Assembly: GCA_011033025.1 (NCBI GenBank)
Contig: WFMF01000010.1
Coordinates: 248,001 to 312,000, forward strand
Direction: 5' to 3'
DNA from: Beroe forskalii
Taxonomy: Eukaryota; Ctenophora; Nuda; Beroida; Beroidae
DNA: 64,000 nt
The notes under the pieces are model-generated. The model was not told where the DNA came from. It made no database searches and saw only the letters and a list, made by a program, of their open reading frames with translations. Position numbers and translations under genes: made by a program. Positions 10,254 through 47,005 of the stretch are shown piece after piece; position 1 is the stretch's first letter; every line of letters begins with the position of its first letter.

Positions 10254-11989
10254 GGCTCTACTAGAGGGTAACCTTTCCAGTGTGGAAGCGTTGAAAGATA
10301 TCAAGGAGGATTTGAAAAAAGAAAAGACGTGAGTTCTTTGAATAGCTGCGGTAGTTCTGAATCATGGGTTTTCACACTTTCAAATGATCTATCGATAATT
10401 GCAATCGACTTTGTTTTCTCATCATGAAATCATGATTTAAACGAAACTCCGTTTTTCAGACGCTACATCTAGAAATGATCCAACAACTTCAGAACCACTT
10501 GTACCTCAAAGCTCCTTCAGCTAAAGAGAAGGTTCAACTTTTCAGGAGTGGTAAGAATTAAATTCAATATGAAGTCACTACAGAGTTTTGATACAATGTA
10601 TGCGAGAATCCTTGTTTTTACCTTTCGGCATTAATATTTATTCTGATTTTTTTCCTTTTGCCTCTCATGGGATTCCTTCCGTCAACAAACCGTAAGTCCA
10701 AAACAGTGGTTTACATATACATGGAAATGGTGAAAATTTCGTGTTTTGTATTATTTTCAGAACTATAAAATTCCATTTTAGTGAACTAAAACTATTAATT
10801 CCACCTTGAGTGTTCATGATATCATTAGACTAATCATTACCCTGATCCCCAGAAGTATGAAAAAACTTTTAAAAGCCTATGAAATGGATAACACAAATGA
10901 ACTACAGCTCCAAAATCACTGTGTTTTTACCGAAAAAAATACGGCATAAGATTTTTTTTATGTAATTTGGATTACGTTTTGAAGCTGATTGTTAATATTT
11001 CATGCTGCTAAAATTTCACGGTTCAAATCGCATGTAAAACAACGTTGATGCAGTCCTGCTATGGCACCCTTCTGTACATGGAAATGGTGAAAAGTAATGT
11101 TATTGTATTACAGTCGAACCGACTACACCTTACCACTCTTCGTCCATTGTAACTTGCATCTCATCGTCACAAAAAACCCCACTGGTTTGTGTACAGGTTA
11201 AGCCTTTGAAATGGATAACACGCATACCTACAGCTCATGGGTCGCTGTGAGTTGCCGGTTACGGCATAAGAATAGTAAGTTGGGTTGATGCGACCTTTCA
11301 CCCGCTGACTTTTTATTCCTGGCCCTTTCACCACCCTAGGTAAAAAGTCACACTTGGAGCTTAGGGTGGTAAAAGGGCGGGGATAAAAAGTCCATGGGAG
11401 GGGGTAAAAGTGGCATACTCTAAGTTGGTGTGTTGCAGGCGAGCCCCCGGGGTTGGATAACGAGGGGGGTAAAAGTGGCATACTCTTTCTTGGTGTTTTG
11501 AAGAAAAGGTTGGATAACGAGGGGAGGGGGTAAAAGTGGCATACTCTAAGTTGGTGTGTTGCAGGCGAGCCCCCGGAGATGGATAACGAGGAGGAATATG
11601 AGGATGAGGAGGAGAACCTGAGCAAGGACCCGGAGGAGGACACCTACAAGTTCCTGAAACTCCTCATCCAGAGCCTGCAGCAGCTCGGCAGACTCGACGA
11701 GACCATCGAGGTAGCGTTACGAAACTTCGGAGTAGATTTTTTTGCATAATACCTCTTCAACTTTTTCTATATCTCTGTACCAATAAAAGAACATTAACAA
11801 GTGTGCGTCTGGTAGGTGATAGAGAAGAGCATGGAGTCGGAGTTGCGGAGCATTCTGAACAACACGGCTCAGGACCTTCTCTACAAGAAGAGACTCACTA
11901 ACCAGATTGACAACCAGCCGACCCTCTTCCCTGAGCTACTGGAGGAGTGTTTTGCCAAATACCGGGCTGTCGCTGCCTCCCACCACGTG
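10254..11989 (+). CDS. EXOC4: Sec8 / exocyst complex component 4, exons 1-4 seen (N-terminal coiled-coil part)
   Basis: Exons: 10254-10328, 10460-10550, 11565-11710, 11816-11989. Acceptors are tttcag, tttcag, ttgcag, ggtag; donors gtgagt, gtaaga, gtagcg, gtatga. Translation reads ALLEGNLSSVEALKDIKEDL, then LHLEMIQQLQNHLYLKAP, then an acidic stretch MDNEEEYEDEEENLSKD, then SMESELRSILNNTAQDLLYK and a segment ending AVAASHHV. This follows the order of vertebrate Sec8, whose matching region has …HLVLIDELHRHLYIK…. Sec8 is a subunit of the octameric exocyst that tethers secretory vesicles to the plasma membrane. Oddities: the exon 1-2 junction does not keep frame with canonical sites (two bases too many), and the usual N-terminal ~150 residues are not found upstream. 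The acceptor of exon 3 lies in a short tandem repeat. Confidence 0.88.
11395..11590 (+). repeat. Tandem copies of a Sec8 intron end plus exon 3 start
   Basis: The block gtaaaagtggcatactct…ttgcag followed by gcgagcccccgg and tggataacgagg occurs at ~11402, degenerate at ~11472 (ttgaag in place of ttgcag) and ~11530. Only the last copy runs into conserved Sec8 coding sequence. Each unit spans the splice acceptor. Confidence 0.8.
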
Positions 11990-11999
11990 GTATGAAGTG

Positions 12000-12500
12000 T
12001 GTCTGCAATTTAAATAGTGAAACGAGCAAATAATGACATCCCAAAGTTTCGTGAAGAAACTCCGAACGCGATAAGAGTTATAGTGCTCTACTTTTGTCTA
12101 ATTTCGATGTGTGGTGACTTGAGTAAACCTCAAAGCTTTTTCAATATTTCTGCCAGGTTTCATCGCATCTAAATTCAATATAGTAAACATTCAATATCAA
12201 AGCAATACAAATTTAAGAATTGGGGCATACCTCGTCTGCGTGTCGTTGTTCTCTTTTACATGGAATCAAATTCCTGGAATAATAATGGAAAATGTTCAGG
12301 TAATTAACGCAATAGAGCACCTGCGATACGGTCGACAAGCTAGCAGATACACCAACAACATTGTGTGGAGTAACATACAAACATGCGTAAGTGTGGCCGA
12401 CTGTACTTAGACTGCACACGATCTGCGACCTGACTGTACACATTCCCCCTACTCACGCAGTATAAGGCCCCTTACCCCCACTACATTTCCCTCTAAACCC
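12000..12500. other. Sec8 intron, unique part
   Basis: Intronic DNA between exon 4 and the repeat block. Vertebrate Sec8 has about 25 further residues between these exons; I see no exon encoding them here, and the flanking phases (0 and 0) allow direct joining. Confidence 0.45.
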
Positions 12501-12529
12501 CTCCTAGAGACCACCTCCTGACTTCCCCC

Positions 12530-13711
12530 AGGTCTCACCCCGCTCCTCAGCCCCCCCCCTCAGTAGTGACCCCTCCCCCTCAGATGGAGACTCCCCCCTC
12601 CTCAGGTCTCAACCCCCCTACTCAGGTGGAGACTCACCCCCCTCCCCAAGTCTCACCTCCTCCCTCACCCCCGGCCCCTCTTAGGCCATACCCCCATCCT
12701 CCTCACCTCCCCCCTCTCAGGTGGAGCTGCTCCTCAGGGACTACATGGCAGTGGACGAGGACGTGGCCGCTCAGCCCCCCTCCTCCTCCTCCACCTCACC
12801 TTCCCTCCTCACCCCCCCTCTTACTCACCCCGCTCCTCCTCACCCCCCTCCCCCCCTAAGGTCTCATCCCCCAGGTCTCACCCCCTCCAGGCCTCACCCC
12901 AAGGTCTCACCCCCCTCCAGGTCTCATCCCCCAGGTCTCACCCCTCCAGGTCTCACCCCCAGGTCTCACCCCTCCAGGTCTCACCCCCAGGTCTCACCCC
13001 CTCCAGGTCTCATCCCCCCTAAGGTCTCACCCCCTCCTCAGGTCTCACCCCCCCTCTCAGGTGGAGCTGCACCTCAGGGACTACATGGCAGTGGACGAGG
13101 ACGTGGCCGCTCAGCCCCCCTCCTCCTCCTCCTCCTCCTCACCTTCCCTCCTCACCCCCCCCCCTCTTACTCACCCCGCTCCTCCTCACCCCCGGCCCCT
13201 CTCAGGCCTTACCCCCATCCTCCTCACCTCCCCCCTCTCAGGTGGAGCTGCTTCTCAGGGACTACATGGCAGTAGACAAGGACGTGGCTGCTCAGCCCCC
13301 CTCCTCCTCCTCACCTTCCCTTCTCCTCACCCCCTCCTCCTCCTCACGCTCCCTCCTCCTCACCCCCCTCTTACTCACCCCCCTCCTCCTCATCCCCCTC
13401 CCCCCCCTAAGGTCTCATCCCCCAGGTCTCATCCCTCCAGGTCTCACCCCCTCCAGGTCTCATCCCCCTAAGGTCTCACCCCTCACAAGTCTCACCCCCC
13501 CTCTCAGGTGGAGCTGCTCCTCAGGGACTACATGGCAGTAGACGAGGACGTGGCCGCTCAGCCCCCCTCCTCCTCCTCCTCACCCCTCCTCCTCACCCCC
13601 TCCTCCTCACCCCCTCCTCACCCCCCCTCAGGTCTCACCCCCCCTCAGGACTAACCCCCCCTCAGGTCTCCCCCCCTCCCTCTCAAGTCTCACCTCCCCC
13701 CCCCTCTTCAG
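12530..13711 (+). repeat. Four extra partial copies of Sec8 exon 5 start with acceptor, inside a C-rich array
   Basis: The acceptor ctctcag plus the ~72-base exon start (encoding VELLLRDYMAVDEDVAAQPP) occurs at 12721, 13061, 13242 and 13508, before the true exon at 13712. Between copies lies a nested repeat of ~16-18 bp (aggtctcaccccctcc). The copies differ by a few substitutions (VELHLRDY at 13061; MAVDKD at 13242). In two frames the block stays open for 100-180 codons, but those frames are Pro/Ser/His repeat translations. Confidence 0.9.
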
Positions 13712-15942
13712 GTGGAGCTGCTCCTCAGGGACTACATGGCAGTAGACGAGGACGTGGCCGCTCAGCCCCCCTCCTCCTCCTCCTCCGCTGCTGTGTCCTA
13801 CAACCCTGTCCGTAACGATGTCTCCTCCTTCTTCTCCAGGAGTGGTCGCAGACCGGAGCGTGCTCAGCACAACCTCTTCTCCTTCGAGTCCAGTGCCACC
13901 GGTTTGTCAAATATCAGGGGGCAACGCTACTGCAGACTGGTCTCATGTCAAAAAGTGGATTTTGAAACTGCGGCCTTTGCCCTTTATTAGTCTCAAATAG
14001 CTTTCCAAATATTTTTCTATCATTTCGATTCATCCAGGGCCGTTTTATCGATATTGGGGTGGCCTAAAAGAGCCCTTAGTTTTGGCGAATATTGGTAGGC
14101 ACTGTTCTAAAGTTCTAAAACTCCACAGTCTACATTCATCAATTATCAAAAATTTAAATACGGTTTTTGTTGAAAGACGTGTTTGATGAACCTCTTTGAA
14201 TATGAGAATCTTAGTGTCTTCTGCACATCGTACAGGACTAACTAGGTCGTCGGAGTGTCGGAGCCAACAGTACAGCACTGTGTCTGCTACCACCACCGCC
14301 TACGAGCTACCTGCCCTCTGTCAGAAGGTATAGGGTTACTTATTGCTACATGTCATTTGTTTAACTGCCCCCCCCCTTATTGTGAATTCAAATTAACCGG
14401 GTCTGTGCCAACGAAAATCGAGCATGATTCTCCGTCTTCTTTCAGAGTCCTCACAACATAACCCTGGTGTTCAAGCAGATAACCAACTTCATTAAGGAGA
14501 TTAACAACGTCATCAACATGACCGGCAGGTATATGATTGTAGTCAATACCCCTATTAGTAAAATGTAATGATCTCGGATGGTAATAATTCCCTACCGTTT
14601 TGTATCACTTGACTCATTTTCCGAGAATAATCGACCTCTCAGTCAGTTGATTATTATCTCTCAGTCAGTTGATCCCGCTGCAACACTTCCTGAATGACTT
14701 TGTGGATAACAAGTTCCTTCCTACACTCCAAGCTAAGGTTAAACGGGACATTGCAGATGCCACCGAGGGTTTGTAGCCATCCATTTCAACTTATTGTGAC
14801 TTTGTTTTGTCTTTCCAGAGGGTACAGAGTAATCTGTTGTATTGATAAGTTCGGTCACCTTTTATTCATTGATAAAGAAAAGGAACAAAATTCTGTACGG
14901 AACATCATCAAGAACGAACTTTATACTTTCAAACTTAACAAATTTACATAATATTCACTATTCGTGTGACTTGAATGCTGATCGTGGTCAGGTAATTCAG
15001 GTCTAAACATGGTGAAGCTACCAGCAAGCAAGATAGGATGGCCAAGACCTCTCCTGCAGGTGATATTTGTCATTGTTTTGAACATTCCTAATCATAATAT
15101 TCAGGAAAATACTATTTACTGATGTTTGGGATTAGTTGTAATATAGTTCAACGACAAAATATGTTTGTAGAAAACTTGTTATGATCAGCTGTTGGCATGA
15201 GATGATTGATTGACATAACTGGTTCTGCAGGGCACGCTGAAGGTTCAGGAGGAGTTGGTAGAGCTGAGATCTCTCATGAACCGAATGCCCAAATACTGCA
15301 ACAAGTTCCTGGATATTATCTACGATGTCTTGAAGTCCTACAAGAAGATATGTCACAATACATTCAGCAGTGAGTCAAATTATCAAACCATAATCCCGTC
15401 TTTTAATCTGCGTCCATTCAGAAGAGAAATTCAGTAAAGATTTACTATATCGGTATCATGATTCAACAGTTCAACACTTGACTTGGGTGTAGCGTGTTAT
15501 TTATTAATTCCTCGAGCCTCAGTAAAGCTTTCCCAACCTTCAGATATTGTGGGAATTAACTCAATGAGCGAGACGGTGTGTCACGTGTGGTTTAAAGACG
15601 AGAATCTGAAACAGCTCATTCGGTGAGTGGGTCTCTGGAGGAATATCTCGGTCCTTGGTTCAACGTTTTTCTAATTTAAAGTATAGTTGAGGAAGTATTG
15701 GGGAAGTAGTCAACTTATCATTGAATTGCTTTAGTGGAAAGATGAAATTGATTAACTTGGGGTGTGATTCATCATTCAGTGTTCTAAAACCAGCAATTTG
15801 ATAACCGTAATACCCTATTCACATCAACCATCCCCTGCAGAGAGTTACCGTTGTGGGTGGAGATGTTTAACCCTGACAAGCCCGTACGGGAAACATCCAC
15901 TACCAATGCTGACATCGTCAACTCTATCAACTCCGCACCTAG
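13712..15942 (+). CDS. EXOC4: Sec8 / exocyst complex component 4, exons 5-12 seen (central region)
   Basis: Exons: 13712-13901, 14236-14327, 14446-14528, 14665-14768, 14992-15059, 15231-15369, 15544-15622, 15841-15942. All join in phase (0/1, 1/0, 0/2, 2/1, 1/0, 0/1, 1/2, 2/2) with GT-AG borders. Diagnostic matches to vertebrate Sec8, in order: HNLFSFESSAT (KNSLFKFESSS), SPHNITLVFKQITNFIKEI (ARNITVIFHPLLRFIQEIE), FVDNKFLPTLQAKVKRDI, WPRPLLQ (QRPLLQ), CNKFLDIIYDVLKSYKKIC, and RELPLWVEMFNP. These are the helical rods of a CATCHR-type exocyst subunit. Each exon is conserved and uninterrupted, which argues this part is under coding constraint. The exon 8 acceptor is duplicated (ctcagtcagttgat at 14636 and 14659). 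Confidence 0.92.
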
Positions 15943-15959
15943 GTAGGCAATTCTTTGTC

Positions 15960-16480
15960 TTGTGGTAGTCGACTAGTCAGTGGTAATCTAGTCGATTAGT
16001 CGGTGGTATTCTAGTCGAGAAGTCTGTGGTATTCTAGTCGAGTAGTCGGTTGTATTCTAGTCGAGTTGTCGGTGGTATTCTAGTCGAGTAGTCGGTGGTA
16101 TTCTAGTCAAGTAGTCAGTGGTATTCTAGTCGAGTAGTCGGTGGTATTCTAGTCAAGTAGTCAGTGGTATTCTAGTCGAATAGTCAGTGGTATTCTAGTC
16201 GAGTAGTCGGTAGTATTTTTGTCGAATAGTCGCTGGTATTCTAGTCGAGTAGTCGGTGGTATTCTAGTTGAGTAGTCGGTAGTATTTTTGTCGAATAGTC
16301 GGTGGTATTCTAGTCGAGTAGTCGGTGGTATTCTAGTTGAGTAGTCGGTAGTATTTTAGTCGAATAGTCGGTGGTATTCTAGTTGAGTAGTCGGTAGTAT
16401 TCTAGTTGAGTAGTCGGTAGTATTTTTGTCGAATAGTCGGTGGTATTCTAGTCGAGTAGTCGGTGGTATTCTAGTCAACA
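15960..16480. repeat. Intronic 23-bp minisatellite in Sec8
   Basis: About 22 copies of gtcgagtagtcggtggtatt plus cta, starting ~20 bases after the donor of exon 12. Variants exchange gag/gaa/tga and ggt/agt. This array starts close to the donor but its unit contains no exon sequence. Confidence 0.9.
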
Positions 16481-16735
16481 CAAGAGGGTGGGGTGTCTCT
16501 ACTGAGTGGTGCCGCCACTTCGAGAAATGGGATTCATTCTGAAATTTTTGATCGTGCGGGACCACATGCCCACATACGTTCTGGATATACTGTTAAATCG
16601 GTACCACGTACAAATGGTGGATATGAGGAAATTTCAGACACCGATCTCAGAGGTGGCGACATCTCTGTTAGGATGTATGGAATATCAGAACTTTTCCATT
16701 TCGTTGAGCCCCTCACTGACCCCACGCCTCCTCAG

Positions 16736-17310
16736 GTATATCAGGAAGTACGCTGCACCCGGCCTGTCACCCCACGTGCCACCTCACCTGCTACATCGCA
16801 TACCTCATGACACGATCCGTCAACCTCAGGTGCGCCACCTCACCGCTCTCTCACCGGTCTGTGTTGCACTCAACATCGCCAAAACTAACGCAAATTCGCC
16901 AAAAACTAACGCAAATTCACCGGAAAATCACGCAACATCGCCTACCACAAGCCCGTCAGAAAGTGGCGCAACCTCACCCAGCAGTCCGGGAGATGGGGTT
17001 GGATTGGGTGATCACTACAAGTACCACCGACTTTCCACCAATCGCGTGCATCACGTGATCAGACACGATAACGACAGTAATTACACTGTCGTCAAGCAGC
17101 TAACTTTCCGTGACAGCTGCGTCACTACCACTGACATGACGCAGTGTAGTGACATAACCAGCGATGTCATGACGACGTGTAGTGATGTCATGACGACATG
17201 TAGTGACGTCATGACGACGTGTAGTGACGTGTCACGTGACAACTCGTATCACGAACTGGACTCACTCTCCTCACTCCTCACCTCCTCATCCTTCACTTCC
17301 TCATCTTCAT
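16736..17310 (+). CDS. EXOC4: Sec8 insert exon: Ser/Thr/His-rich, 192 codons
   Basis: It fits between exons ending 15942 (phase 2) and starting 17535 (phase 1): acceptor cctcag at 16735, donor gtgaga at 17311, frame open throughout. The join reads APR-YIRKYAAPGLSPHV at the start and SSSC-KEILDKN at the end. The interior is low complexity: NANSPKTNANSPENHATSP, then four imperfect repeats of SDVMTTC (21-bp period, ~17148-17235), then a Ser-rich tail. Vertebrate Sec8 has only a short linker here, so this would be a lineage-specific disordered insertion. The frame remains open upstream to 16506, so an earlier acceptor is possible. It is assigned by phase and open frame, not by homology. Confidence 0.55.
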
Positions 17311-17385
17311 GTGAGAATAGTTACTGTGTGTTAAAATATAATTGCAGGGATCAGGTTAGGTTGATAAAGTGGTTAGCTGGTTCGG

Positions 17386-17545
17386 GTCCGGGCAAGGAAG
17401 TGACTTTCCACAAGTCATTTGCTCAGAGTTTTATTTAAGGCGTTCTTCCCTGTCTGCCAAGGAGATCTTTGACTAAACCAATTATCTTGTCCCAGGCAAG
17501 GAGATCCTCCACAAAACCAAACATCCTATCCTAGGCAAGGAGATC
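17386..17545 (+). repeat. Four tandem copies of the acceptor and start of Sec8 exon 14
   Basis: The motif (c)caggcaaggagatcctc with variants occurs at ~17388 (gggcaaggaagtgact), ~17456 (gccaaggagatcttt), ~17493 (cccaggcaaggagatcctcc) and 17531 (ctaggcaaggagatcctcg). Only the last continues into conserved coding sequence. Units are 37-68 bp and each carries, or has mutated away, an AG acceptor. Confidence 0.75.
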
Positions 17546-17671
17546 CTCGACAAGAACTCGGTGATAGCTGAGAGTGAGCGGTTGATCCAGCTGGCACAAC
17601 TCCAAGACAGCATCACGTGGTTGCTGGAGTTCGTTAACGGATTAGTGGAGAACTTACAGGCCGACAAAGAG
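17535..17671 (+). CDS. EXOC4: Sec8 / exocyst complex component 4, exon 14
   Basis: Acceptor cctag, donor gtaaga, phase 1 in and 0 out. It encodes KEILDKNSVIAESERL followed by AQLQDSITWLLEFVNGLVEN. This matches the vertebrate Sec8 segment [20 protein letters not shown] followed by ANMHESLEWLAGRTKSAFSN in position and spacing, and should be followed by the exon beginning LQEQLSG. Confidence 0.85.
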
Positions 17672-17699
17672 GTAAGAAAGGGGACCTTCTGTTATCTCT

Positions 17700-18465
17700 T
17701 TGTAGCACTCAAATACAGACGGGTCAAAAACCGAGTTGTGATAAGTTGGAAATGAAGCATTCTCTTTCATGATCCGATGTTATCTATCGTGATCTGATAT
17801 ATTATTGCAAAGAATTCGAACTGACCGGAAATTTCTGTTTCTTCCTCCCAACCAGGGTAATTTTCAGTTAAACGCTTTAAGAGCCCAAACAAAGAAACTG
17901 ACTGGAATCAGTTCCGTGATCAGTCCAGCATATTACCTGGTATTGATGGGGCTATGCTTTCTCCAATCTCACTTCAAACAACATTAGTTTCTTAAACACA
18001 GTTCACAGCACACACTTGCTTCTTGTCATTTACTCGTTTATCTTTTATCTCATCATGTCGCTGTCAGCCACAGCATGTAACTCAATGGGAACTGACACAT
18101 CATAGGAGCATGGTATCTGTATGACAGCTTGCTACCCCTTCAAGAGCTGCACGTATTTGTCTTACATAGCTACATGTCACTTGCTTCCGATCCATTTGGA
18201 TCATGACGACTCTTATTTGTTTTATTGACAATCTTTATTTGCATCATGTGCTTATTTTTAATGACTTTTATACCAAACACGATATAATTTATAAAACTTA
18301 GAACTTAACCATTTCCTTATCATAAAACTTACTTATTTCCTTATCATAAAAAATCATTTAATTTTCCCAACTTCCATTTCTAATCACCCACTCCCTCTCT
18401 CATTGAACCATTTCCTCCCCTTATCTACCCATCCCCCTCCCATTCACCCTCCCTCACTACCTCAC
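17700..18465. other. Sec8 intron, unique part
   Basis: AT-rich intronic DNA leading into the 81-bp array. No exon or element recognised. Confidence 0.5.
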
Positions 18466-18469
18466 CCTG

Positions 18470-21400
18470 ACAGTTACAAGAGCAGCTGAGTGGGAGTAAC
18501 GCTAAGCTGCCATCCCCCTCCCATTTACCCTCCCTCACCACCTCACCCTGACAGTTACAAGAGCAGCTGGAGTGGGAGTAACACTAAGCTGTCATCCCCC
18601 TCCATTGCCTCCCTCACCACCTCATTTGACAGCTACAGAGCAGCTGAGTGGCAGTAACACTAAGCTGCCATCCCTCCCATTTACCCTCCTCACCACCTCA
18701 CCCTGACAGCTACAAGAGCAGCTGAGTGGTAGTAACACTAAGCTGCCATCCCCCTCCCATTTACCCTCCCTCACTACCTCACCCTGACAGCTACAAGAGC
18801 AGCTGAGTGGGAGTAACGCTAAGCTGTCATCCCCCTCCCATTTACCCTCCCTCACTACCTCACCCTGACAGCTACAAGAGCAGCTGAGTGGCAGTAACAC
18901 TAAGCTGCCATCCCCCTCCCATTTACCCTCCCTCACCACCTCACCCTGACAGCTACAAGAGCAGCTGAGTGGGAGTAACACTAAGCTGCCATCCCCCTCC
19001 CATTTACCCTCCCTCACTACCTCACCCTGACAGCTACAAGAGCAGCTGAGTGGGAGTAACACTAAGCTGCCATCCCCCTCCCATTTACCCTCCCTCACCA
19101 CCTCACCCTGACAGCTACAAGAGCAGCTGAGTGGCAGTAACACTAAGCTGCCATCCCCCTCCCATTTACCCTCCCTCACCACCTCACCCTGACAGCTACA
19201 AGAGCAGCTGAGTGGCAGTAACACTAAGCTGCCATCCCCCTCCCATTTACCCTCCCTCACCACCTCACCCTGACAGCTACAAGAGCAGCTGAGTGGTAAT
19301 AACACTAAGCTGCCATCCCCCTCCCATTTACCCTCCCTCACTACCTCACCCTGACAGCTACAAGAGCAGCTGAGTGGTAGTAACACTAAGCTGCCATATC
19401 CCTCCCATTTACCCTCCCTCACCACCTCACCCTGACAGCTACAAGAGCAGCTGAGTGGGAGTAACACTAAGCTGTCATCCCCCTCCCATTTACCCTCCCT
19501 CACCACCTCACCCTGACAGCTACAAGAGCAGCTGAGTGGCAGTAACACTAAGCTGCCATCCCTCACTACCTCACCCTGACAGCTACAAGAGCAGCTGAGT
19601 GGTAGTAACACTAAGCTGCCATCCCCCTCTCATTTACCCTCCTCACCACCTCACCCTGACAGCTACAAGAGCAGCTGAGTAACGAGTAACACTAAGCTGC
19701 CATCCCCTCCCATTTACCCTCCTCACCACCTCACCCTGACAGCTACAAGAGCAGCTGAGTGGGAGTAACACTAAGCTGCCATCCCCTCCCATTTACCCTC
19801 CCTCACCCTCACCCTGACAGCTACAAGAGCAGCTGAGTGGCAGTAACACTAAGCTGCCATCCCTCCCATTTACCCTCCTCACTACCTCACCCTGACAGCT
19901 ACAAGAGCAGCTGAGTGGTAGTAACACTAGCTGCCATCCCCTCCCATTTACCTCCCTCACTACCTCACCCTGACCTTTCACAAGAGCAGCTGAGTGGTAA
20001 CATCTGCCATCCCTCCCATTTACCCTCCCTCACCACCTCACCCCTGACAGCTACAAGAGCAGCTGAGTGGGAGTAACACTAAGCTGTCATCCCCCTCCCA
20101 TTTACCCTCCCTCACCACTCACCCTGACAGCTACAAGAGCAGCTGAGTGGGAGTAACTAAGCTGCCATCCCCCTCCCATTTACCCTCCCTCTCACCACCT
20201 CACCCCTGACAGCTACAAGAGCAGCTGAGTGGCAGTAACACTAAGCTGTCATCCCCCTCCCATTTACCCTCCCTCACCACCTCACCCTGACAGCTACAAG
20301 AGCAGCTGAGTGGCAGTAACACTAAGCTGCCATCCCCCTCCCATTTACCCTCCCTCACCACCTCACCCTGACAGCTACAAGAGCAGCTGAGTGGGAGTAA
20401 CACTAAGCTGCCATCCCCCTCCCATTTACCCTCCCTCACCACCTCACCCTGACAGCTACAAGAGCAGCTGAGCAGCTCACCCTGCTGCCATCCCTCCCAT
20501 TTACCCCTCCCTCACCACCTCACCCTGACAGCTACAAGAGCAGCTGAGTGGCAGTAACACTAAGCTGTCATCCCCCTCCCATTTACCCTCCCTCACCACC
20601 TCACCCTGACAGCTATAAGAGCAGCTGAGTGGGAGTAACACTGCTGCCATCCCCTCCCATTTACCCTCCCTCACCACCTCACCCTGACAGCTACAAGAGC
20701 AGCGCTGAGTAACACTAAGCTGCCATCCCCTCCCATTTACCCTCCCTCACCACCTCACCCTGACAGCTACAAGAGCAGCTGAGTGGCAGTAACACTAAGC
20801 TGCCATCCCCCTCCCATTTACCCTCCCTCACCACCTCACCCTGACAGCTACAAGAGCAGCTGAGTGGGAGTAACACTAAGCTGTCATCCCCCCTCCCTCA
20901 CTACCTCACCCTGACAGCTACAAGAGCAACTGAGTGGGAGTAACGCTAAGCTGCCATCCACCTCCCATTTACCCTCCCTCACCACCTCACCCTGACAGCT
21001 ACAAGAGCAGCTGAGTGGGAGTAACACTAAGCTGTCATCCCCCTCCCATTTACCCTCCCTCACCACCTCACCCTGACAGCTACAAGAGCAACTGAGTGGG
21101 AGTAACGCTAAGCTGCCATCCACCTCCCATTTACCCTCCCTCACCACCTCACCCTGACAGCTACAAGAGCAGCTGAGTGGGAGTAACACTAAGCTGTCAT
21201 CCCCCTCCCATTTACCCTCCCTCACCACCTCACCCTGACAGCTACAAGAGCAGCTGAGTGGGAGTAAAACTAAGCTGTCATCCCTCCCATTTACCCTCCC
21301 CACTACCTCACCCTGACAGCTACAAAGAGCAGCTGAGTGGGTAGTAACACTAAGCTGCCATCCTCCCATTTACCCTCCTCACCACCTCACCCTGACAGCT

Positions 21401-21745
21401 ACAAGAGCAGCTGAGTGGCAGTAACACTAAGCTGCCATCCCCCTCCCATTTACCCTCCCTCACCACCTCACCCTGACAGCTACAAGAGCAGCTGAGTGGC
21501 AGTAACACTAAGCTGTCATCCCCCTCCCATTTACCCTCCCTCACCACCTCACCCTGACAGCTACAAGAGCAGCTGAGTGGGAGTAACACTAAGCTGTCAT
21601 CCCCCTCCCATTTACCCTCCCTCACTACCTCACCCTGACAGCTACAAGAGCAGCTGAGTGGGAGTAACACTAAGCTGCCATCCCCCTCCCATTTACCCTC
21701 CCTCACCACCTCACCCTGACAGCTACAAGAGCAGCTGAGTGGCAG
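18470..21745 (+). repeat. 81-bp minisatellite (~40 copies) made of Sec8 intron end, acceptor and first ~36 bases of exon 15
   Basis: Each unit is an intron tail (cccatttaccctccctcacc … ccctgacag), the acceptor, and exon start ctacaagagcagctgagtgg + (g/c)agtaacactaag encoding LQEQLSGSNTK. Some units are shortened by 3-20 bases. On the plus strand a TGA (ccc tga cag) in the exon frame closes each unit, so reading through is not possible. The long minus-strand frames here are antisense translations of the repeat. The last unit (21719 on) is cut after gcagta and does not lead into the rest of the exon, which survives only at 59979-60146. Confidence 0.95.
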
Positions 21746-21747
21746 TA
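21719..21747 (+). pseudogene. Truncated Sec8 exon 15 (copy A)
   Basis: After the final acceptor the exon reads LQEQLSGS and then passes into unrelated sequence (tag stop). Compared with 59979-60300, about 280 bases are missing, including the remaining ~48 codons and the donor; homology resumes at atcaaattaacattcttgac. This makes copy A unable to encode a full Sec8. Confidence 0.8.
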
Positions 21748-21854
21748 GGAGTTTAGTATGTTAATTTTATCAAATTAACATTCTTGACTCCTTGTCGCAT
21801 TGAACTCCTTTTCAAGTGCAACATCGAATCTGATGAAATGCGATACTAAGTATT

Positions 21855-22835
21855 ATGCAACTACCTTATTGTAACAAATTTAGTAAGCAACTAATCAATC
21901 CGCAGGAAAATAAGAAAGCAGCAAATTAAGAAACTTTTTTAAGGCTGAAAATTAATTAAGAAACTTTTTTGGAACTGGAATAAATTAAGAAACTTTCATG
22001 GCTCCATAGAATCTGAATATAAATTGTTACTGAAAATTTTTTCAGACGAGCAATTTATGCCTTTAAGTTTGTAAAATATTCAAATTCCGTGCTCAACCCG
22101 GCAAAAGGATATAAAAGTAAGTCAACCGAGTGTGGTCTTGAGTCTTTTTAGCTTTCGAAGTATAATTTTTTCTAATATTAATGTAAAATTAATATTACAT
22201 TAAATAAGAGTCACGAAATTAAGGTACATAAAATTAATCTACATATAATTAAAGAAACATTAAATTAAGAAGCAGTTTATTAAGAAACTTTTTTGCCCGG
22301 TTTCTTAATAAACTGCTTTCTTAATTTCATGTAGTAAGGTACTAAGGAGGTTTACGCAGTGCTACTTTATACCCATTATGCACGCTAAAACAGTTACATT
22401 TTTTTAAAAGTGCAACTACGGTGCCAAAAAAACGGAACTACAGTTGATAATAAAACCATTTTGGCATTGTACTTTGGTGTTTTTCAAAACGTGACCTTAC
22501 TATAGGAGGGAGAGGTGTTAGAAATGAACACTGGGGTGACATACCGCAGATTTCACACTGAAGGATACAGTAGCTGCACTTATTACAATAGCTCAAATAC
22601 TAGACAAGCCAATAACACTACATATTCTCATATTCTTGCTTGAATTATACATAATTACGAAATATGCCTTCATGTATTTGTCGTTGCATAATTCCGGTTT
22701 TTGTAACCAAAATTAAAACCTTCCATTAAAACCTCGACCTTCGGTCTTAATAATTATGCCCTCGCGCTTCGCGCTCGGTGCATATCGCGGTTTGCAATTT
22801 TTGCTAGTTACAAAACCTCTCATTTTCTGTAGTTT
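21855..22835. mobile_element. ~980-bp insertion in copy A relative to copy C
   Basis: Sequence on both sides matches 60300-60390 (…gaatctga.gaaa.gcgat… and …ttttctgtagcgagaacttg), but the middle is absent there. The insert repeats attaagaaacttttttg several times and contains an inverted pair near 22265-22320 (gcagtttattaagaaact / gtttcttaataaactgc). No coding frame. Exact ends are uncertain by ~20 bases. Confidence 0.65.
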
Positions 22836-22958
22836 CTGTAGCGAGAACTTGACCAGAACAACACCACGAATTTCTTCAGTCCTAGCATTATCCACAGGTG
22901 ATATTTAATGATTATTGATTGTAACCTATCGGATGTTGACCCCCTTTCTCTCCCTTAG

Positions 22959-23077
22959 CAAGATTACAAGATCGACATAGTGAGTTCGGATCCTGACTCG
23001 GGTGTCACGCTGCTCAACAAGTTTCTCTCCCAACTAGAGGAGAAAGTTAGGGACTACCTTCCCCTATCCCATACCAA
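22959..23077 (+). CDS. EXOC4: Sec8 / exocyst complex component 4, exon 16 (copy A)
   Basis: Acceptor cccttag, donor gtaagt. It encodes QDYKIDIVSSDPDSGVTLL, NKFLSQLEEKVRDYL and PLSHT, phase 0 in and 2 out, matching the region after the conserved LxVRVxCxxYLI segment of vertebrate Sec8. The same exon is at 60510-60628 with only synonymous-looking changes. Its 3' end and donor are tandemly repeated downstream. Confidence 0.8.
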
Positions 23078-23535
23078 GTAAGTTATTGCAGTGCCAACTT
23101 GAGGAGAAAGTTAGGGACTACCTTCCCCTATCCCATACCAAGTAAGTTATTGCAGTGCCAATTAGAGGAGAAAGTTAGGGACTACCTTCCCCTATCCCAT
23201 ACCAAGTAAGTTATTGCAGTGCCAACTGGAGGAGAAAGTTAGGGACTACCTTCCCCTATCCCATACCAAGTAAGTTATTGCAGTACCAATTGGAGGAGAA
23301 AGTTAGGGACCACCTTCCTCATATATACCAAGTAAGTTATTGCAGTGCCAATTGGAGAAAGTTAGGGACTGCCCCCTATCCCATACCAAGTAAGTTATTG
23401 CAGTGCCAACTGGAGGAGAAAGTTAGGGACTACCTTCCCCTATCCCATACCAAGTAAGTTATTGCAGTGCCAACTGGAGGAGAAAGTTAGGGACTACCTT
23501 CCCCTATCCCATGCCAAGTAAATTATTGCAGTGGC
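23033..23535 (+). repeat. 64-bp tandem repeat of Sec8 exon 16 end plus splice donor (about 8 copies)
   Basis: The unit is gaggagaaagttagggacta, then ccttcccctatcccatacca and ag|taagttattgcagtgccaa. Every unit has the donor GTAAGT in the same position, and the sequence ttgcag just before the next exon-like block resembles an acceptor. Units near 23295 and 23350 carry deletions. Copy C has only two units (60590-60706). Confidence 0.93.
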
Positions 23536-23539
23536 AAGT

Positions 23540-25440
23540 TTTTATTTGATTTTGTACATGAAACTTTTCATGGTAATAATTAATGCTTTAACTTGATAAG
23601 TTGATAAATAGAGGTGAACTAAAGAAGACGAGCTTTGACAACAAATGAATATTAGAAACCGAGAACCAAAACCACAGTCATACCTGCTAAGATATGTTCA
23701 TTACCGACCTTATAACAATTCAATATTCATGATCTCAGATAAAAAGGAAATATCAAATAAACGTTATATTCAAATATATAACAATTAATAAGCCCATATG
23801 TATGAAATCTACAATTCACAATTTAACTAAATGTCATTAAGAATATCTTTTATCGGTAACTGTTATTTTATTCTAGATTTCTACAAGCATCTCAATATCA
23901 TCTCAATTAATAAACCACTCATTTTGAATGTTGTTAATTCACTGCAATATTTATTCAGTATTGAGGAGAGTCCTTGGTTCAAATCCTCGTAACTTCGTAA
24001 TCAGTACTCCGTAGCCATTAAAAGGGTGATACCCATCCTTAGCGCGCAACACTCCGACATTTGAAAGGTTCGTGCTCCAAACTACGTGCACAAGAAGTGC
24101 ATGCGACCTGAAATCAAAATATTTTTGATAGAGGAGCAAACCGTTTATTATGGACATCCTGCGCCAAGGATCCTAGTCGCCTGGGGGAGTGGGAACGAGT
24201 TCCGTTCCTACCTAGGAATTACCTGATTTGTCAACTGGTTATCATGTTACTCGTGTGACATCATGTAATATTGTAGTAGAAGCTCTGAGGGCAACAATCC
24301 CGACACCACCAGCTAGCCGACCAGTGACCAGCCAGCTAGCCTACCGGCGGGCTGGTTGGTCAGCAGACCGGCGCCTGAATTTCCAATATTCTACAAGCTT
24401 TACATACATACTATTTCTCTGTTTTGCCCCAATGCCTTTTGGAAAAGGGAAAGGAAAATCCAACAAATTCACCCCGCGGCAATCCCTGGTATACTTACTC
24501 GCGCTTCCCTTTATTTCCATGCTCAATCACCACTCGCTACGAAAGGTAACATCGCTCTCTCTCCGTTTTTAGAAGAGTCCTCGTTGCAAATCCTCCTCTG
24601 CTCGTTCTCTGTACTCCGTAGCCATCTCAGGAATGCATCAGCCACCTGAAGTTGAAGTAGTTTCTTATATTATCATGGACTCGCGGAGATCCGCCGAAGA
24701 TGGCAACTGTTTTGCTAAGAATCACTTTGCAATAAGAAATCGATGCGCTGTAGTTTTTATAACGTTGACATTGAAAATTCTGGTTTTCTATAATCACCCC
24801 ATTACCTGTTTTCAACGTGTTACCATGTTACTCGTGTGACTTCATGTAGTGGAAGCTCTAAGATTCCTTTTGGAGCGAATTGCTGTGTTTTCCTGTGAAT
24901 CTCTAAATAGTCTGTTATCATGTGAGAGTCTGAGAGATGCCTGTTCCCAGAACCGTATCCTGATAGTGTTATACCGGGAGACCTACCGTATGAGCAAAAC
25001 ACTAAAAGGAAGAAATGAAATAGGAAAGGGCTACCCACCACGTGTCCACCCTCTGGGGATTTTCCGACCCCACGTCCACCGGTCCACACTCCACACTGGT
25101 TTTCCGTCGCCGACCATGCGTCCACCGACCACGCGTTCACTGGCTGATAACTGATAAGTACTGGCATATCTATGTTACAGAAGGCTGCTTCGGGAATTTC
25201 AATTTATCTGCATAAAATTTCTCTTGGCATGTACTTCTCGTTCAAAAAGCAGAGATCCACACTGCGGAATTCGTTGTCTGACGCGCGCGGAGGGGGTCAG
25301 GCGACGCCTGACAAGGAATATGTATAAAAAGAACCTTGATGATCAGAGTGGGAGTACGCTCTGCACAAACAAATCCTGCTGGCTGTGTCCCAAGCAGGCT
25401 GTCAAACGCACACGGTTTGTGCACTATACAGTGTTTTTAT
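23540..25440. other. Noncoding part of the duplicated block (copy A)
   Basis: Matches 60707-62650 nearly base for base with small gaps. No conserved coding frame; open frames in both copies contain different stops. It contains the words ggttcaaatcc (~23977) and a GC-rich patch acgcgcgcggagggggtcag (~25281). Confidence 0.6.
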
Positions 25441-25451
25441 CTTCAACTCAC

Positions 25452-30060: not shown

Positions 30061-30061
30061 C

Positions 30062-32650: not shown

Positions 32651-32699
32651 AGTTCCACTAGTCACTAAGGTTCCGAAATCTGACTTTATCCAGTCAAAT

Positions 32700-33750: not shown

Positions 33751-33754
33751 TAAG

Positions 33755-34255: not shown

Positions 34256-34256
34256 A

Positions 34257-34370
34257 TAATTCACATATTACGTAATCAATTTTTGGGCATTTTACCCCCT
34301 CCCCCTCCGTAATCAAACGTAATCACAGCCAAATCCCCCCTCTTTTTGGTAAAATATTACGTAATCATGG
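34257..34370. mobile_element. Short inverted-repeat transposon (MITE), copy 2
   Basis: ttcacatattacgtaatcaa plus the C-rich centre matches copy 1 at 3826-3946. The right end is diverged (tattacgtaatcatgg). Followed by a C run at 34378-34392. Confidence 0.65.
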
Positions 34371-34432
34371 CCCAACCTCCCCCCCCCCCCCCACCAAAAA
34401 CTATATATTTACCGACGAAAATTTAGAACAGT

Positions 34433-34756: not shown

Positions 34757-34869
34757 CAACAGACAGCTAAATCCGTTGACTTTGAGCTAAGCGGATCCGC
34801 TAAGCTAAGCGGATCCGCTTAGCAGTTAAGCAGTAGCTAAGCGGATCCGCTTAGGTACTAAAGACTATG

Positions 34870-35780: not shown

Positions 35781-35781
35781 T

Positions 35782-35917
35782 TCATTCCGTTTCTTATCAT
35801 CCTTGAGTTTCACTCGTATCTCATTCACTTGATATCATAATATATATATATATATATATTATGATATCAAGTGAATGAGATACGAGTGAAACTCAAGGAT
35901 GATAAGAAACGGAATGA
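35782..35917. repeat. Perfect inverted repeat, 68-bp arms around (AT)n
   Basis: The left arm starts tcattccgtttcttatcatc and the right arm ends gatgataagaaacggaatga; the centre is a run of ~11 AT. No mismatch was found along the arms. It could extrude as a cruciform or be an inverted duplication formed by replication template switching. Confidence 0.9.
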
Positions 35918-35919
35918 TT

Positions 35920-37915: not shown

Positions 37916-37916
37916 T

Positions 37917-40900
37917 ATGGACACATCTGCACTGTACACAAAGGTAAAATATCTAAATATAATGGCTTTTTGGCACTTTTTCATCACTCATCTTTCTTTT
38001 CAGCAGAATCTTATACCTGTGCCCAATTACTACCTAATTACTTAATACATTGAAAGCTAGATTTCTTTGAATACTATCTGGTCCTTATGATTGAGTTACT
38101 ATGTCTGGTCAATCAACCTCAATCAATTTAGTTCTTCGAATTATGTTATACCTGAGAACTCAGAAATCTATCTATGTACCTATCATTTTACCCAATCTGC
38201 TACCAAATCTGTTTCAAAAATGGGGGGGGGGGTAAATGATTAGGTTAATTGATTTTTTCAAAAAATAGTCTTGTACACATTTATACCTTCTTGCAAACTC
38301 TCAAAGAAAAATCTTACTGGAATTAAAAAAACTGAGTTAAACAGTCACCATGAAACGATTCCTGCTGATTCCCATTGAAATTGTTTGCCCATATATAACT
38401 CAGGAAGTCATCTATTTCAAAGGAATTAGCACAATACAATGTGGTCCATTGTTCAGTCTCGTGCTAACTATACAGCATTTCTCACTCAACTACAACTAGG
38501 TATAATGACTCTCTTGCTCTATCAACCTCTTGGTTCACATTTTCCATTGACTCATCGAACTTGTTGTATAATAGGTACTCCTTTGCTATAGTAGATGTTT
38601 CATAAGTTTTGGCAAAACTTTTACCGCCGACAGTCATTTCAAGATGATATTGTTCTTGATAAGGTAAGTTGATTAGCCTCTTTTGAACAATCAAGCAGTG
38701 AATATTCTGTTTCTCTAAATGTCATTATTATCAGGTGCATTACATGGATTTCGAATAGATGTTTCATTGACTTGTACCTATATCTTATGAAAGTGAAAAG
38801 AAGTCATTTTTCGTAATCGGCAGCTTTATTGGTCATATACTCGTACATCTAAATAAGTAAATAATTGTCACAAAATCCAGTTAGTTTTATCAAGTCCATA
38901 AACTTAGATATTAGCCCACACCTAAACAGTTAGATTGTGTATGAGCTGTAAATTACATGCCCCTTCTCACGCACTTGTCTGACACCTAAAGGTTTAGAAG
39001 CATGATACCTATCCCTAAATTAGAAGATGTATCCACTACCAATGTTTTTAATAAAATTATAAAACTAAATAATAGATACACTATAAATCGATAGTTTATC
39101 GTTGTGTGGGACTGTGCAAGAAAGAATGATTCGTATAGGGAAATAGAAATCAAATTTTAGTTATAGTTATTGGTTGATTGAAGAAATTGAGTGCCAAAAG
39201 GACAAAATCTCTTGGCGAGAGATTTTGTCAATCTATCAATAGCAACTGTCTTATTTTTTTCAGATAAAACAGATATATAAATACTGTACACATTACATAG
39301 GTTAAAAATATCGAAACGTGCAGTTCATGATTTTTGGGCAGAAAAAATGAAATAAGGTCTAATTTATTGTCGACTGAAGAACTCCTTGTACACCTACAGG
39401 TTCTGACCTGGTCTCCCCTCTCCTAAGTTACCCCCCCCCCTAAGTTAATAATATTTCTACATTTGCATAACCATGACCTGTCCTCTCCCCGCACAGGGCA
39501 CGCGGGTGTGGATATCTGACAGAGATGAGGTGTGGAAGGATGGGGTCGTGGTCTCCTACACCCCAAGGGAGAACATCCTCGTATCAGACGCAGCTGGCAC
39601 GGTATGGAGCATCACTCTTCTTGAATCTATTACTCTATTATGATATCTTCTCATCTGTTGATCTGTCCACTAACCTGTGCTTAGTTCTTTAGTTTTATAG
39701 TTTTATGAAATCTTGGAAAATGTAGCAGATTCCTTGTGTCTCTCACAAGATAATTTAGTAATCTATGATCTACTGCAATAGGTTATACTGTAATAGTTCC
39801 GACGCTGAGCATCATGCATGTAATTGGTTCAAATACTGAATTAGCAATAAGTTAGTAGAGACTTGTAATGCGCTGTGGATAATTTCCTACATGTTCTGTA
39901 GCTCTCAGTGAGCCTCTCTCAGACACATGAAATTGTTGGTGGAATGTCTGACTTTAATCGCTATAATTTGGTGCACCAATCGGTGAAGTGGCTCTATAAT
40001 TCCTTGCTCATGTGCACTGTATTGCGTCACTGAGTGGGTGTGTACAGTGTACACACTAAGACCTGTACACACACCATACATACATACATACATACTGCAC
40101 AGTGCACACGCTGTATGATTGTTGTATGATTTGTATACAATAGCTACTGAACTATAAGTGTATTGTAGAGTGGCTGGTCCGCGTTTACATGATCTCACAG
40201 TGGCCTATTAGAGTTCAGGCAATGCTCAGTAATTGCCTGAATTAGCAGTATTTCTCCTCTTCTCAGACTCAATGTCATGTCTCACAGGGTAATTATGACT
40301 TCATGAACTGTGTGTTAAAGTACAGGCCATGTGGGGCTCTGTGCTGAATCCTTTGGTGCAGGAGGGAAAATAAGGCTCCGAAGTCCGACCCGTGAGAACA
40401 CGGTATTTTATGCTGAATTTTTTTTATCCGGAAATCTCCAAATGAAAGCTATTACTCTATTATAACTCTCATTTAGCCTTTAAAAGCGTCACCCTCTTAC
40501 ACTGCCTTATGAATGAAATGTTAGGAAGATAGAAAACAGTACGAAGTTATAATGTTTAAATGGTATAAACTGATAAAACATGTAGGCATATGTTATTGAT
40601 ACCTGTCCGCATTATGCAAGCAGGTATTGTAAACGGGTAAAGTGATATACGGGGTTGTAAGGAATAGACGGGTAATGACCGGTTGAGTAGAGCTCTACAA
40701 TGATGAAAAGTACAATGCTCCCCTATGACACACAATACGGAGGAACGTTTGACCCTTCGAAGGAAGTACACGCCGTGGTAGCTACATTCCTAACATTTCC
40801 CCGGCTGTTGTGTGGTAAACACACGCACAATCGCCAATGACTCTCCACACGAAACACTGACGAGGGATGCAGCTCAAGGTTTTGTTGTTTTATCTCCAAA

Positions 40901-43900: not shown

Positions 43901-46389
43901 AAACTTCAATTATGCGAAAATGGGATCTTCAACTTAATTGCTTTTGTGCGTGGCGATGCTTTAGAGCCTTTAATCAATTAATCACTCTTTATACTTTCCT
44001 AGATTATACTTTCCTAGATTTTTTATAATACTTTACATGAGGTATATCTTTAGCAAATCCTTTAACTTTGTACTCTAATCATGTCTTAATCGACCTAATG
44101 TTGATCTAAATATAACTCAGTAGACTGTCCTATGACGGTCGGTTGCTATAATTAAACACATGGAATTATGAAACTCCTTATTCAGATTCCATATAATAAA
44201 GGTTTCATATATTAGTTATCAGAATACCTATTGTGTTCATATGATCCGAAAAGAGAAGAATGCGAAAGATTTATTCTCATTTACAAAGCCTAACATTTGT
44301 AAGCAATACGAAATTTACTATTTAGGTAGGTAGCGCTGGTGTTGAATTCAAAATTCATTGGATCATTGTATTTTACTTCGTTTATCTATAATAAAGTAAT
44401 TTAACCATTGCCACTCCTACCTGAGTACCTGGTAAGACCAAATTCCAATTTGAAGTCTGAATATAGGAATCAAAATTATCAATCCGATTCGACCATCATC
44501 ATCAAAAGAGAGGCCGGACCCGAGGGTCCGCAAGAGGATAGTCCCGGAGTGGGACTGTGCCTACCTCTAGTCGCCGAGGCGACGGGGGGTGAGGGTGAAA
44601 GGTGATGGAGGTGGTGGAGGGTGAAATGAGGGTGTGGCTAGCGAGGGAGAAAACCTTTGCAATACAATACCAGATACTTCAGAGCTATCGGAGAGATGAG
44701 TAGATGCTATGTCACCCTGTATTGTCCGCCTCCTCCTCTGTTCGCTGTAGTCTTTTGGTTTGGAGTGTGTAATTGATCAGTGCGTCCATACTGTTGTTGT
44801 CCATGATGTCGTTAATGGAGTCATAGTATGTCCGAGTGTGTTGCCTCTGATTCTCATAAAAGCAGGGCATTGTCCAATGAAGTGTGCCACTGTCTCCTCA
44901 GTGTCAGTGCAGTAAGGGCAGTTTGGTGTGTCAGCGCGTGTTATTCTGTGCAAGTGTTTGTTCAGTCCTATGTGTCCTGTGATAATGGAGATAGCAGTTC
45001 GGTACCGGATACGGTTGCCAGTGTTGTTGTTAAGTGTGTGAAAAACCTTCTTCTGATGGTTACCTATGATCATGTCAGTGTGAGCATGTTTGTTGGTGAT
45101 CCACCTGTCGTGGCTGAGGTTGGTTACCTTGGTATTGATTAAGTGTTTGATGAATGAAATGGGGACAAGGCTGGTGACGGGGTTACCATCTTTTGGTGCC
45201 AGCCTTGGCAAGCTGGTCTGCTTTCTCGTTTCCCCAGTGTCCGATGTGGGCTTTTATCCATCTGACTTGGACTGTGTTGTCATGAGCTAGGGAGGTGAGT
45301 GACTTGTGACAGTCTGCAACTGATTTGTTCCTGTGGATTCCTGTGGATTCGACCATTCTGATGAGTAAATTTCTTGCAGATCCACCCACCTTTCCACTAG
45401 TAGGTCTGTGAATTTTGCAAAGAAATAATGACATGCAAGTCTCACTACTTTACTAGCACAATATCCCGTGCAGAGTGCACATGTCATTGGTGAGTGGTGG
45501 GGAAAGTGAGTGGTTTTGGAATGATTGGAGCCGGGTAATTGCTGTAGAAGCTAAACACTGGCAGACTGCTGCAGCTCCCAATATCATGATCTGATGACAT
45601 ATTCTGCTGCAGCACTCGAAGATGCAACCTCCTGCATTACATATATCATTTGTATAGATTGAGCGATATAGTAGCTTTGTTATACTGTAGGATAGAATGG
45701 AAATTATAATTCTGTGGAACTAAGAAAGTTAGAAGGAGGGAGAGAGTTCGTAAATATCTTATTAACATTTGAATATGATTTACTGAGTAAGTCTCTGTTA
45801 TCGATAATGGAGTGTAAATGGGAACCACCCCATTTTAAAATAGAACTTACTAACTTCCTGGGGAGGTACGGGGCTTGTTCCCATCCACAGTAGCCCTGGC
45901 ATCAGGGACCTCCCAGAGGGAGGTCCCGAGCCGGGGACTCTGTTTGAATCTCTCGTAGATCTATCCCCCGTTTAGTAGTAGAAGAATTACTGCATCATGT
46001 TACTATGGTTGAAAAAAGTTCAAACTTCAAACTACGCCACTAATATTATTTCATCAGAATTTTGTTCTTGCCCAGCTTTATCCTCATCTCAACTGCCCTT
46101 CGCCCCTCGTTACTGCTTTACTGATCTTATTTACTCCCCAAAATTTGCTCTTCTCAACTCCCTTGAAGTTGAGGCAGTTGCTTTAAATTTTAGAAATTTT
46201 AAGTTATTCCCTCCCTTCAGGAGACGCTGATAGCGCTGAAAGATGGCAGCAAGATCCCTCCTCTCCGTAACCCTGAGATACTCACCATGGAGAACAACCT
46301 GACGACGATGAGCTACCTGCACGAGCCTGCCGTACTGCACTCCCTCTCCCAGCGCTTCACTCTCTCAAACAACATCTATACTTACTGCG
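37917..46389 (+). CDS. MYO5: Myosin V heavy chain, first three coding exons (N-terminal SH3-like part and motor start)
   Basis: Exons: 37917-37943 (MDTSALYTK, donor gtaaaa), 39497-39601 (acceptor gcacag, [16 protein letters not shown], donor gtatgg), 46221-46389 (acceptor ttcag; [34 protein letters not shown]; donor gtaagc). Phases 0/0 and 0/0, then 1 out. The start MxxSALYTKxxRVWIxDxDEVW and the motor sequence [13 protein letters not shown]…IYTYCG are diagnostic of class V myosins. They are actin-based cargo motors that act downstream of vesicle traffic in the same pathway as the exocyst. The P-loop exon (GESGAGKT) is not in the window. The start was chosen because it matches the class V N-terminus in length and sequence. 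Confidence 0.92.
37944..39496. other. Myosin V intron 1
   Basis: No coding homology on +. A 70-codon minus frame (38482-38694, containing [17 protein letters not shown]) is compositionally protein-like but has no family match that I know. Confidence 0.5.
42198..42590. repeat. Minisatellite of gtgagaca / gtgtgca / gtgtaca units
   Basis: Composite units of 8-16 bases: agtgagacagtgtgc and agtgagacagtgtac alternate for about 390 bases. The long minus frame ([15 protein letters not shown]) is repeat translation. Confidence 0.9.
44777..45490 (-). pseudogene. 3' end of a non-LTR retrotransposon (RNase H and C-terminal region), decayed
   Basis: Read on the minus strand, the frame around 45434-45190 has the C-terminal RNase H signature [20 protein letters not shown]. 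After a frameshift near 45195, the next frame (to 44777) has [14 protein letters not shown] followed by a CPYC…[13 protein letters not shown] zinc-knuckle-like motif. These are typical of the end of I/Jockey-type LINE ORF2. A further fragment in a third frame at 45287-45487 shows another shift. No reverse transcriptase is present, so the copy is 5'-truncated. Confidence 0.82.
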
Positions 46390-47005
46390 GTAAGCCAGAC
46401 AACATCTACACTTACTGCGGTAAGCCAGACAACATCTACACTTACTGCGGTAAGCCAGACAACATCTACACTTACTGCGGTAAGCCAGACAACATTTACA
46501 TTTACTGCGGTAAGCCACACAACATCTACACTTACTGCGGTAAGCCAGACAACATCTACACTTACTGCGGTAAGCCAGACAACATCTACACTTACTGCGG
46601 TAAGCCAGACAACATCTACACTTACTGCGGTGAGCCAGACAACATTTACACTTACTGCGGTAAGCCACACAACATCTACACTTACTGCGGTAAGCCAGAC
46701 AACATCTACACTTACTGCGGTAAGCCAGACAACATCTAAACTTACTGCGGTAAGCCAGACAACATCTACACTTACTGCGGTAAGCCAGACAACATCTACA
46801 CTTACTGCGGTAAGCCAGACAACATCTTCACTTACTGCGATAAGCCAGACAACATCTATACTTACTGCGGTAAGCCTGACAACATCTACACTTACTGCGG
46901 TAAGCCAGACAACATCTACACTTACTGCGGTAAGCCAGACAACATTTACACTTACTGCGGTAAGCCACACAACATCTACACTTACTGCGGTAAACCTTTA
47001 CTGTG
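46371..47005 (+). repeat. 30-bp tandem repeat of myosin V exon 3 end plus splice donor (about 21 copies)
   Basis: The unit is aacatctacacttactgcgg + taagccagac. The first 19 bases are the end of the exon (NIYTYCG) and gtaagc is the donor, so each unit carries a complete donor. The exon frame stays open ([10 protein letters not shown] repeated) to a taa at ~46737. Degenerate extra units occur at 46990-47010, 47025 and 47318-47380. Confidence 0.95.

Follow-up and report, generated by a model that had tools for sequence, protein, structure and literature searches.

The window analysed here is a 64,000 nucleotide stretch of Beroe forskalii DNA, C2:248001-312000, in an assembly of 216 Mb and 1134 contigs. 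On its forward strand, positions 10253–17671 hold exons 1–14 of a Sec8/EXOC4-like gene, which are seen as open exons with splice signals whose edges were read from the sequence. The edges of exons 1–2 and of exon 13 are the least certain. A Pfam Sec8_C match lies at positions 11630–12025 (30 bits, against a cut-off of 25), and this match together with similarity to stretches of human EXOC4 suggests that the gene encodes the Sec8 component of the exocyst. Further downstream, an exon at positions 46221–46397 (+), with the translated sequence LRNPEIL...NNIYTYCG, displays 66–68% identity to human myosin V and on that similarity is assigned to a putative myosin V gene.

Seven exon-intron junctions in these two genes are present as tandem arrays, six in Sec8 and one in myosin V, all within one 36-kb stretch. 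This is as stated in the original prediction. In each array the repeat unit, as read from the sequence, consists of the exon edge, the splice site and the intron edge. Both ends of exons are affected, i.e. the acceptors of Sec8 exons 3, 5, 8, 14 and 15, and the donors of Sec8 exon 16 and of the myosin V exon. The TRF list contains six of the seven arrays; the Sec8 exon 8 duplication is absent from it. Most copies retain the AG or GT and some are without it. The units of the different arrays are unrelated, and a single element copied around is thereby ruled out as the source. The proposal that every array arose separately at its own junction is supported, and acceptors and donors alike are involved. 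The copy numbers given earlier stand for exons 3, 5, 8, 15, 16 and the myosin exon; exon 14 shows three clear copies rather than four.

The exon 3 acceptor array (positions 11400–11591, +) has three copies of about 65 bp, and TTGCAG/GCGAG (slash at the splice site) is kept in two of the three. Use of the sole other acceptor, which is upstream, would lead to an in-frame stop. The exon 5 acceptor array (12551–13786, +) is C-rich and irregularly spaced and contains five copies of the exon edge; CAG/GTGGAGCTGC is found at positions 12721, 13061, 13242, 13508 and 13712, and all four upstream copies run into a stop. The exon 8 acceptor duplication (14636–14680, +) consists of two 22-bp copies with sites at 14643 and 14665, and the alternative copy results in a 22-nt frame shift. 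The exon 14 acceptor array (17458–17553, +) has a 39-bp unit and three copies of the exon edge, two of them with AG. Splicing to the acceptor further upstream, at 17496, would keep the frame open and add 13 residues.

Exons 15 and 16 of Sec8 are present in two copies. The second copy (copy B), which includes flanking sequence and is found at positions 59861–63460, had not been mentioned in the original prediction. Copies A and B are 93–98% identical. The segmental duplication aligns 59861–63460 with 22829–27283 and 30054–30560, and it carries a small gene in addition to Sec8 exons 15–16. A third partial copy of the small-gene region is located at 30 kb. The small gene is lectin-like by impression; a Pfam search gave it no name, only a sub-threshold POLO_box match.

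The exon 15 acceptor array of copy A is at positions 18429–21747 (+) and is the largest of the seven, with 41.9 copies of an 81-bp unit by TRF. The sequence CTGACAG/YTACAAG is kept in 38 of about 41 copies. The body of exon 15 is missing downstream of the array, the last unit runs into TAA, and 33 of 37 units contain an in-frame stop. Because the exon body is absent, the 41-unit array fronts an exon that no longer exists. Tens of equivalent splice sites had been proposed to compete at one exon, and for this largest array the proposal fails.

In copy B, the exon 15 acceptor array (59861–60011, +) has 1.9 copies of the 81-bp unit. The duplicated segment begins within the array, which is therefore cut at its left end by the duplication breakpoint, and its small size is little informative. 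It is followed by an intact exon 15 body of 56 codons (59979–60146, +), with 50% identity over 44 aa to a human EXOC4 stretch (E-value 4e-12). In a DNA search of the genome, copy B is the only match to the exon body. The only places found beyond A and B are those matching an interspersed intronic element of approximately 100 bp. This element is at about 60178–60290, in the exon 15–16 intron of copy B, and is found at no fewer than 38 further places across the genome.

The exon 16 donor array of copy A (23030–23537, +) has eight copies of a 64-bp unit, all with GT, i.e. seven GTAAGT and one GTAAAT. An in-frame TAA lies just past the first donor and is included by all seven of the outer donors. 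The exon 16 donor array of copy B (60581–60712, +) has two copies of the same unit. The exon 16 junction thus displays eight units in one copy and two in the other, and the copies are paralogues, not alleles.

An intact Sec8 tail exon, which also had gone unmentioned, is found at C2:324689-324802, 12.7 kb past the window, and a 20-bp array extends over more than 1.4 kb ahead of it. Within the window, sequence comparison shows an inverted and decayed copy of the tail exons at positions 53083–53790 (−). The acceptor side of this copy adjoins a 20-bp array of 194 units and 3.9 kb (53821–57689, −), the same array as that at the intact tail (C2:324.7 kb). A search for exon 17 with a human stretch gave no convincing match in the window or in C2:312001-317000.

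The myosin V donor array (46369–46993, +) has 21 copies of a 30-bp unit, 20 of them with GT. It continues the reading frame of the exon across 12 copies, each adding 10 residues, until TAA at position 46737. Degenerate outlying copies of the exon end and donor are at positions 47305–47383 (+; 36 bp, 2.2 copies). A likely first myosin V exon is at 39503–39583 (E-value 0.001). Elsewhere in the genome, DNA searches gave no match to the array-bearing exon and protein searches none that was convincing, and the next myosin V exon was not found within the window. Contig C580 (C580:1225501-1245500, sampled below as stretches L020 and L021) holds an exon that matches the class V P-loop stretch with 91% identity; exon 3 was not found there in the approximately 9 kb upstream of exon 4. 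The 5′ exons of myosin V are thus on C2, inside the Sec8 locus, and the following exons apparently on C580. This represents either a misassembly or a relocated gene start, and the region has either undergone extensive rearrangement or contains assembly errors.

Several other features are present in the window. A large inverted repeat at 5699–6424 has 348-nt arms of 97% identity and a 30-nt spacer, and a second one at 35782–35917 has perfect 68-nt arms and zero spacer. A 168-bp satellite of six units is at 8668–9900 and is adjoined by inverted copies of its unit. A DSL-domain protein (Delta/Serrate-type) is encoded at 48294–49157 (−) in an open frame of 287 codons.

In five of the seven arrays, sites other than the innermost lead nearly always to stops or frame shifts; the exceptions are exon 14 and myosin V. 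In those five the reading frames therefore predict that the innermost site would be the one used.

The frequency of arrays at junctions was determined in a sample of the genome that excludes the window. The sample covers 230,862 bases in 32 stretches: 20 contain myosin-head exons and are 10 kb long, and 12 shorter ones surround exons of kinesin and dynein. The stretches were chosen without looking at arrays. For kinesin and dynein, 60 of the 200 listed matches were used and the 12 short stretches were picked for exon density; Pkinase profile matches were left out of the sampling since many are full-length in a single frame. Arrays were counted as TRF rows with a period of 15–200 and a score of 50 or more, with the best row taken per overlap, except where the settings were varied. 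The searches also showed that at C291:171201-174881, kinesin-motor exons (profile positions 221–264 and 266–302) are found in several tandem repeats, partly with a spacing of about 0.8 kb. Dynein heavy-chain genes at C534:78781 and C1024:1426554 lie beside intron-rich paralogues; their open frames are 3010 and 3715 codons long.

Arrays cover 11.9% of the sampled bases. Four of 101 arrays straddle one of the 241 scored junctions, compared with 3.57 expected by random unit-length placement. This refined-junction count applied an upper limit of 600 bp to profile matches, which removed one of 138, in stretch L045, and thereby loses the array L045:608-695. The best-row choice loses L019:3409-5605, which likewise touches an exon edge, and the two dropped cases would raise the number of straddling arrays to six. 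The power is low, and by Poisson reckoning four to six observed cases are still compatible with an approximately three- to fourfold enrichment. When profile edges were used over all 32 stretches, the observed and expected numbers across settings were 5 and 3.52, 6 and 4.14, 4 and 3.34, and 8 and 4.09. The last of these was obtained under a 4-bp overlap rule and was reached in 42 of 1000 simulations. By subset, there were 4 against 2.07 expected in the myosin stretches and 1 against 1.05 in those of kinesin and dynein.

Arrays internal to exons are nearly lacking, with one found and 9.6 expected. The array inside a profile match, L045:608-695, is a donor-spanning duplication of 43 bp (AAAG/GTAAGG), and the match runs through an intron. 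Another donor case in the sample is L022:5206-5253 (ATAG/GTGGGT). The 42 introns that have adjacent profile ends give 84 intron ends. Arrays cover three of these at position 0 and five at a distance of 10 bp, and from 20 bp inwards the coverage is 8–18%; there is no peak at the ends. This is the pattern of purging from exons rather than that of a junction peak. Exons disrupted by arrays may escape the profile search, and the straddling and the exon-internal classes alike would then be understated.

The repeat units were also analyzed for splice-like motifs, with splice-site score tables and five donor cut-offs per comparison. At 9 bits, 10 of 101 units outside the window contain a donor-like motif, compared with 3.5 in random unique windows, and none of 200 draws reached the observed number. 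When units are grouped into families, 9 of 96 have such a motif. Shuffles that preserve composition give 4.6 on average, and the observed 9 is reached by 8 of 300 of them. The family counts and shuffle values are 26 and 19.9, 16 and 13.3, and 12 and 8.2 at 6 to 8 bits, where the excess is weaker, and 6 and 2.1 at 10 bits, where it is stronger. The degree of donor enrichment thus varies with the cut-off and with the control. The difference at 7 bits is not significant (reached by 72 of 300 shuffles), nor is the excess over random windows at 11 bits (2 against 0.8, 50 of 200 draws). With the window included, 24 of 129 units have a donor-like motif at 8 bits and 13.2 are expected. Acceptor-like motifs show no enrichment: at 8 bits they are found in 8 of 101 units, and 8.4 are expected. 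A bias toward pyrimidine tracts or acceptors is rejected on this count, and with it the suggestion that slippage begins at pyrimidine tracts. In stretch L037, positions 148–3381 (L037:148-3381) contain several arrays of a 27-bp unit that includes CAGGGTGAGTACC, a strong donor-like site; these arrays extend across 3 kb on the upstream side of a myosin exon and are interrupted by another array.

The arrays are of a kind that is already known. In lancelets, so-called mirage minisatellites are described in the globin genes BflGb6 and BflGb9 and in Adh3, TnC and PGBD5. They occur at either end of exons, have units of 10–160 bp, show length instability and reportedly leave splicing normal (PMC3087553, PMC3902484). 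Their anatomy is the same as in B. forskalii, namely minisatellite-like repeats built from intron edge, splice site and exon edge. Acceptors and donors are affected, the units are unrelated and many copies retain AG or GT. Unlike the lancelet cases, the arrays here have up to about 41 units and occupy seven junctions of two genes within 36 kb, in a host with a 216-Mb assembly. Human segmentally duplicated genes also contain minisatellites at exon-intron boundaries, which are expanded in recent copies and alter splicing (PMC2812944). Those repeats resemble the present ones in having units of about 30 bp and in their position at the boundaries of duplicated genes. They differ in that about half are within coding exons and that new introns can arise from those at boundaries, as supported by RNA, whereas in the units here the junction was present already. 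The gain of introns through tandemly duplicated proto-splice sites (PMC2891723) is similar in involving short duplications with splice signals; here existing junctions are multiplied and no new intron position is shown. A search of open-licence papers, which also covered repeat arrays and the splicing of human VNTRs, gave no closer precedent than the lancelet mirages. What is new is the addition of further members in an array-rich genome and a paralogue pair with eight and two units.

The arrays are probably mirage minisatellites, i.e. chance tandem duplications that spanned junctions and grew by slippage or unequal exchange in an array-rich genome with short introns, where arrays in exons are purged and those at junctions are nearly neutral. 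After a tandem duplication across a junction, the exon is still intact and is bordered by an intact site, and the additional copies become intron. Duplications inside exons would change the protein and would be removed by selection. If sites are paired across the exon (exon definition), the innermost site would be used and the rest spliced out, so that the arrays would be nearly neutral. Growth may then follow ordinary minisatellite dynamics, and restraint would be weakest in copy A, whose exon 15 is dead and in which selection is presumably relaxed; no counterpart of this dead-exon setting is known for the 21-copy myosin array. The premise that nothing would place ordinary minisatellites across splice sites so often neglects such selection, which removes exon-internal arrays and tolerates junction-spanning ones. 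The sample supports this account, short of proof. Several observations run counter to it: a local excess at Sec8, the count under the 4-bp rule, the excess of donor motifs, and the two arrays with usable outer sites.

The original prediction had attributed the arrays to a mutational process biased to boundaries. Such a process, most plausibly one acting at donors, e.g. through repair or slippage dependent on R-loops or on the transcript, appears rather unlikely as the source that seeds them. At the Sec8 locus, 4 of 18 arrays straddle a junction (5 of 13 when the exon 5 complex is merged) and 1.0–2.3 are expected, which gives P values of 0.003 to 0.08 depending on the mode of counting for a locus picked post hoc. 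The enrichment of donor-like motifs in units, outside the window and with the window included, and the clear donor cases L045:608-695 and L022:5206-5253 point in the same direction. Against this, the direct count in the sample is at expectation and shows no clear excess. Coverage does not peak at intron ends and acceptor motifs are unenriched. The donor excess is partly a matter of base composition, since at 8 bits the shuffles give 8.2 of 96 and the random windows 5.9 of 101, and at 7 bits it is not significant over shuffles. In at least one high-scoring unit, L034:7194, the donor-like motif is antisense to the local gene, as read by eye. A narrower form of the idea, that tandem duplications are seeded preferentially at 5′ splice sites, two- to threefold over background, by a process linked to transcription or splicing, is considered improbable.

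Assembly error may have contributed in part, in that misjoined or unmerged haplotypes at repeats would account for the array copy numbers, for the A/B duplication and for the split genes. A mirage of this kind, that of lancelet BflGb6, was misassembled in the draft genome (PMC3087553). The near identity of copies A and B together with the absence of the exon 15 body from A, the location of myosin V exon 3 on C2 and of the P-loop exon on C580, and the presence of the Sec8 tail twice, once inverted, are consistent with such an error. We regard this, too, as improbable: the units of the exon 3, 5, 8 and 14 arrays (2–5 copies) and of copy A differ by substitutions and indels, like those of real old arrays, and junction arrays are found on other contigs as well. 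That the arrays are functional, with copies serving as alternative splice sites for protein variants or tuning expression through nonsense-mediated decay, is very improbable, because despite the open frame of the myosin array and the in-frame exon 14 copy, the outer copies of the other five arrays nearly always stop or shift the frame and the unit number differs, eight to two, between paralogues.

Junction-spanning minisatellites have so far been described gene by gene, mainly in lancelets in the literature found. An array-rich genome with a paralogue pair of eight and two units could be used to measure how far selection alone explains the survival of such arrays. The arrays also offer a direct test of exon definition, i.e. 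whether splicing reliably takes the innermost of many equal sites. The excess of donor motifs, if it holds genome-wide, would point to a new mutational bias. If seeding at 5′ splice sites were true, the arrays would be a record of DNA damage associated with R-loops or co-transcriptional splicing and a steady raw material for new introns.
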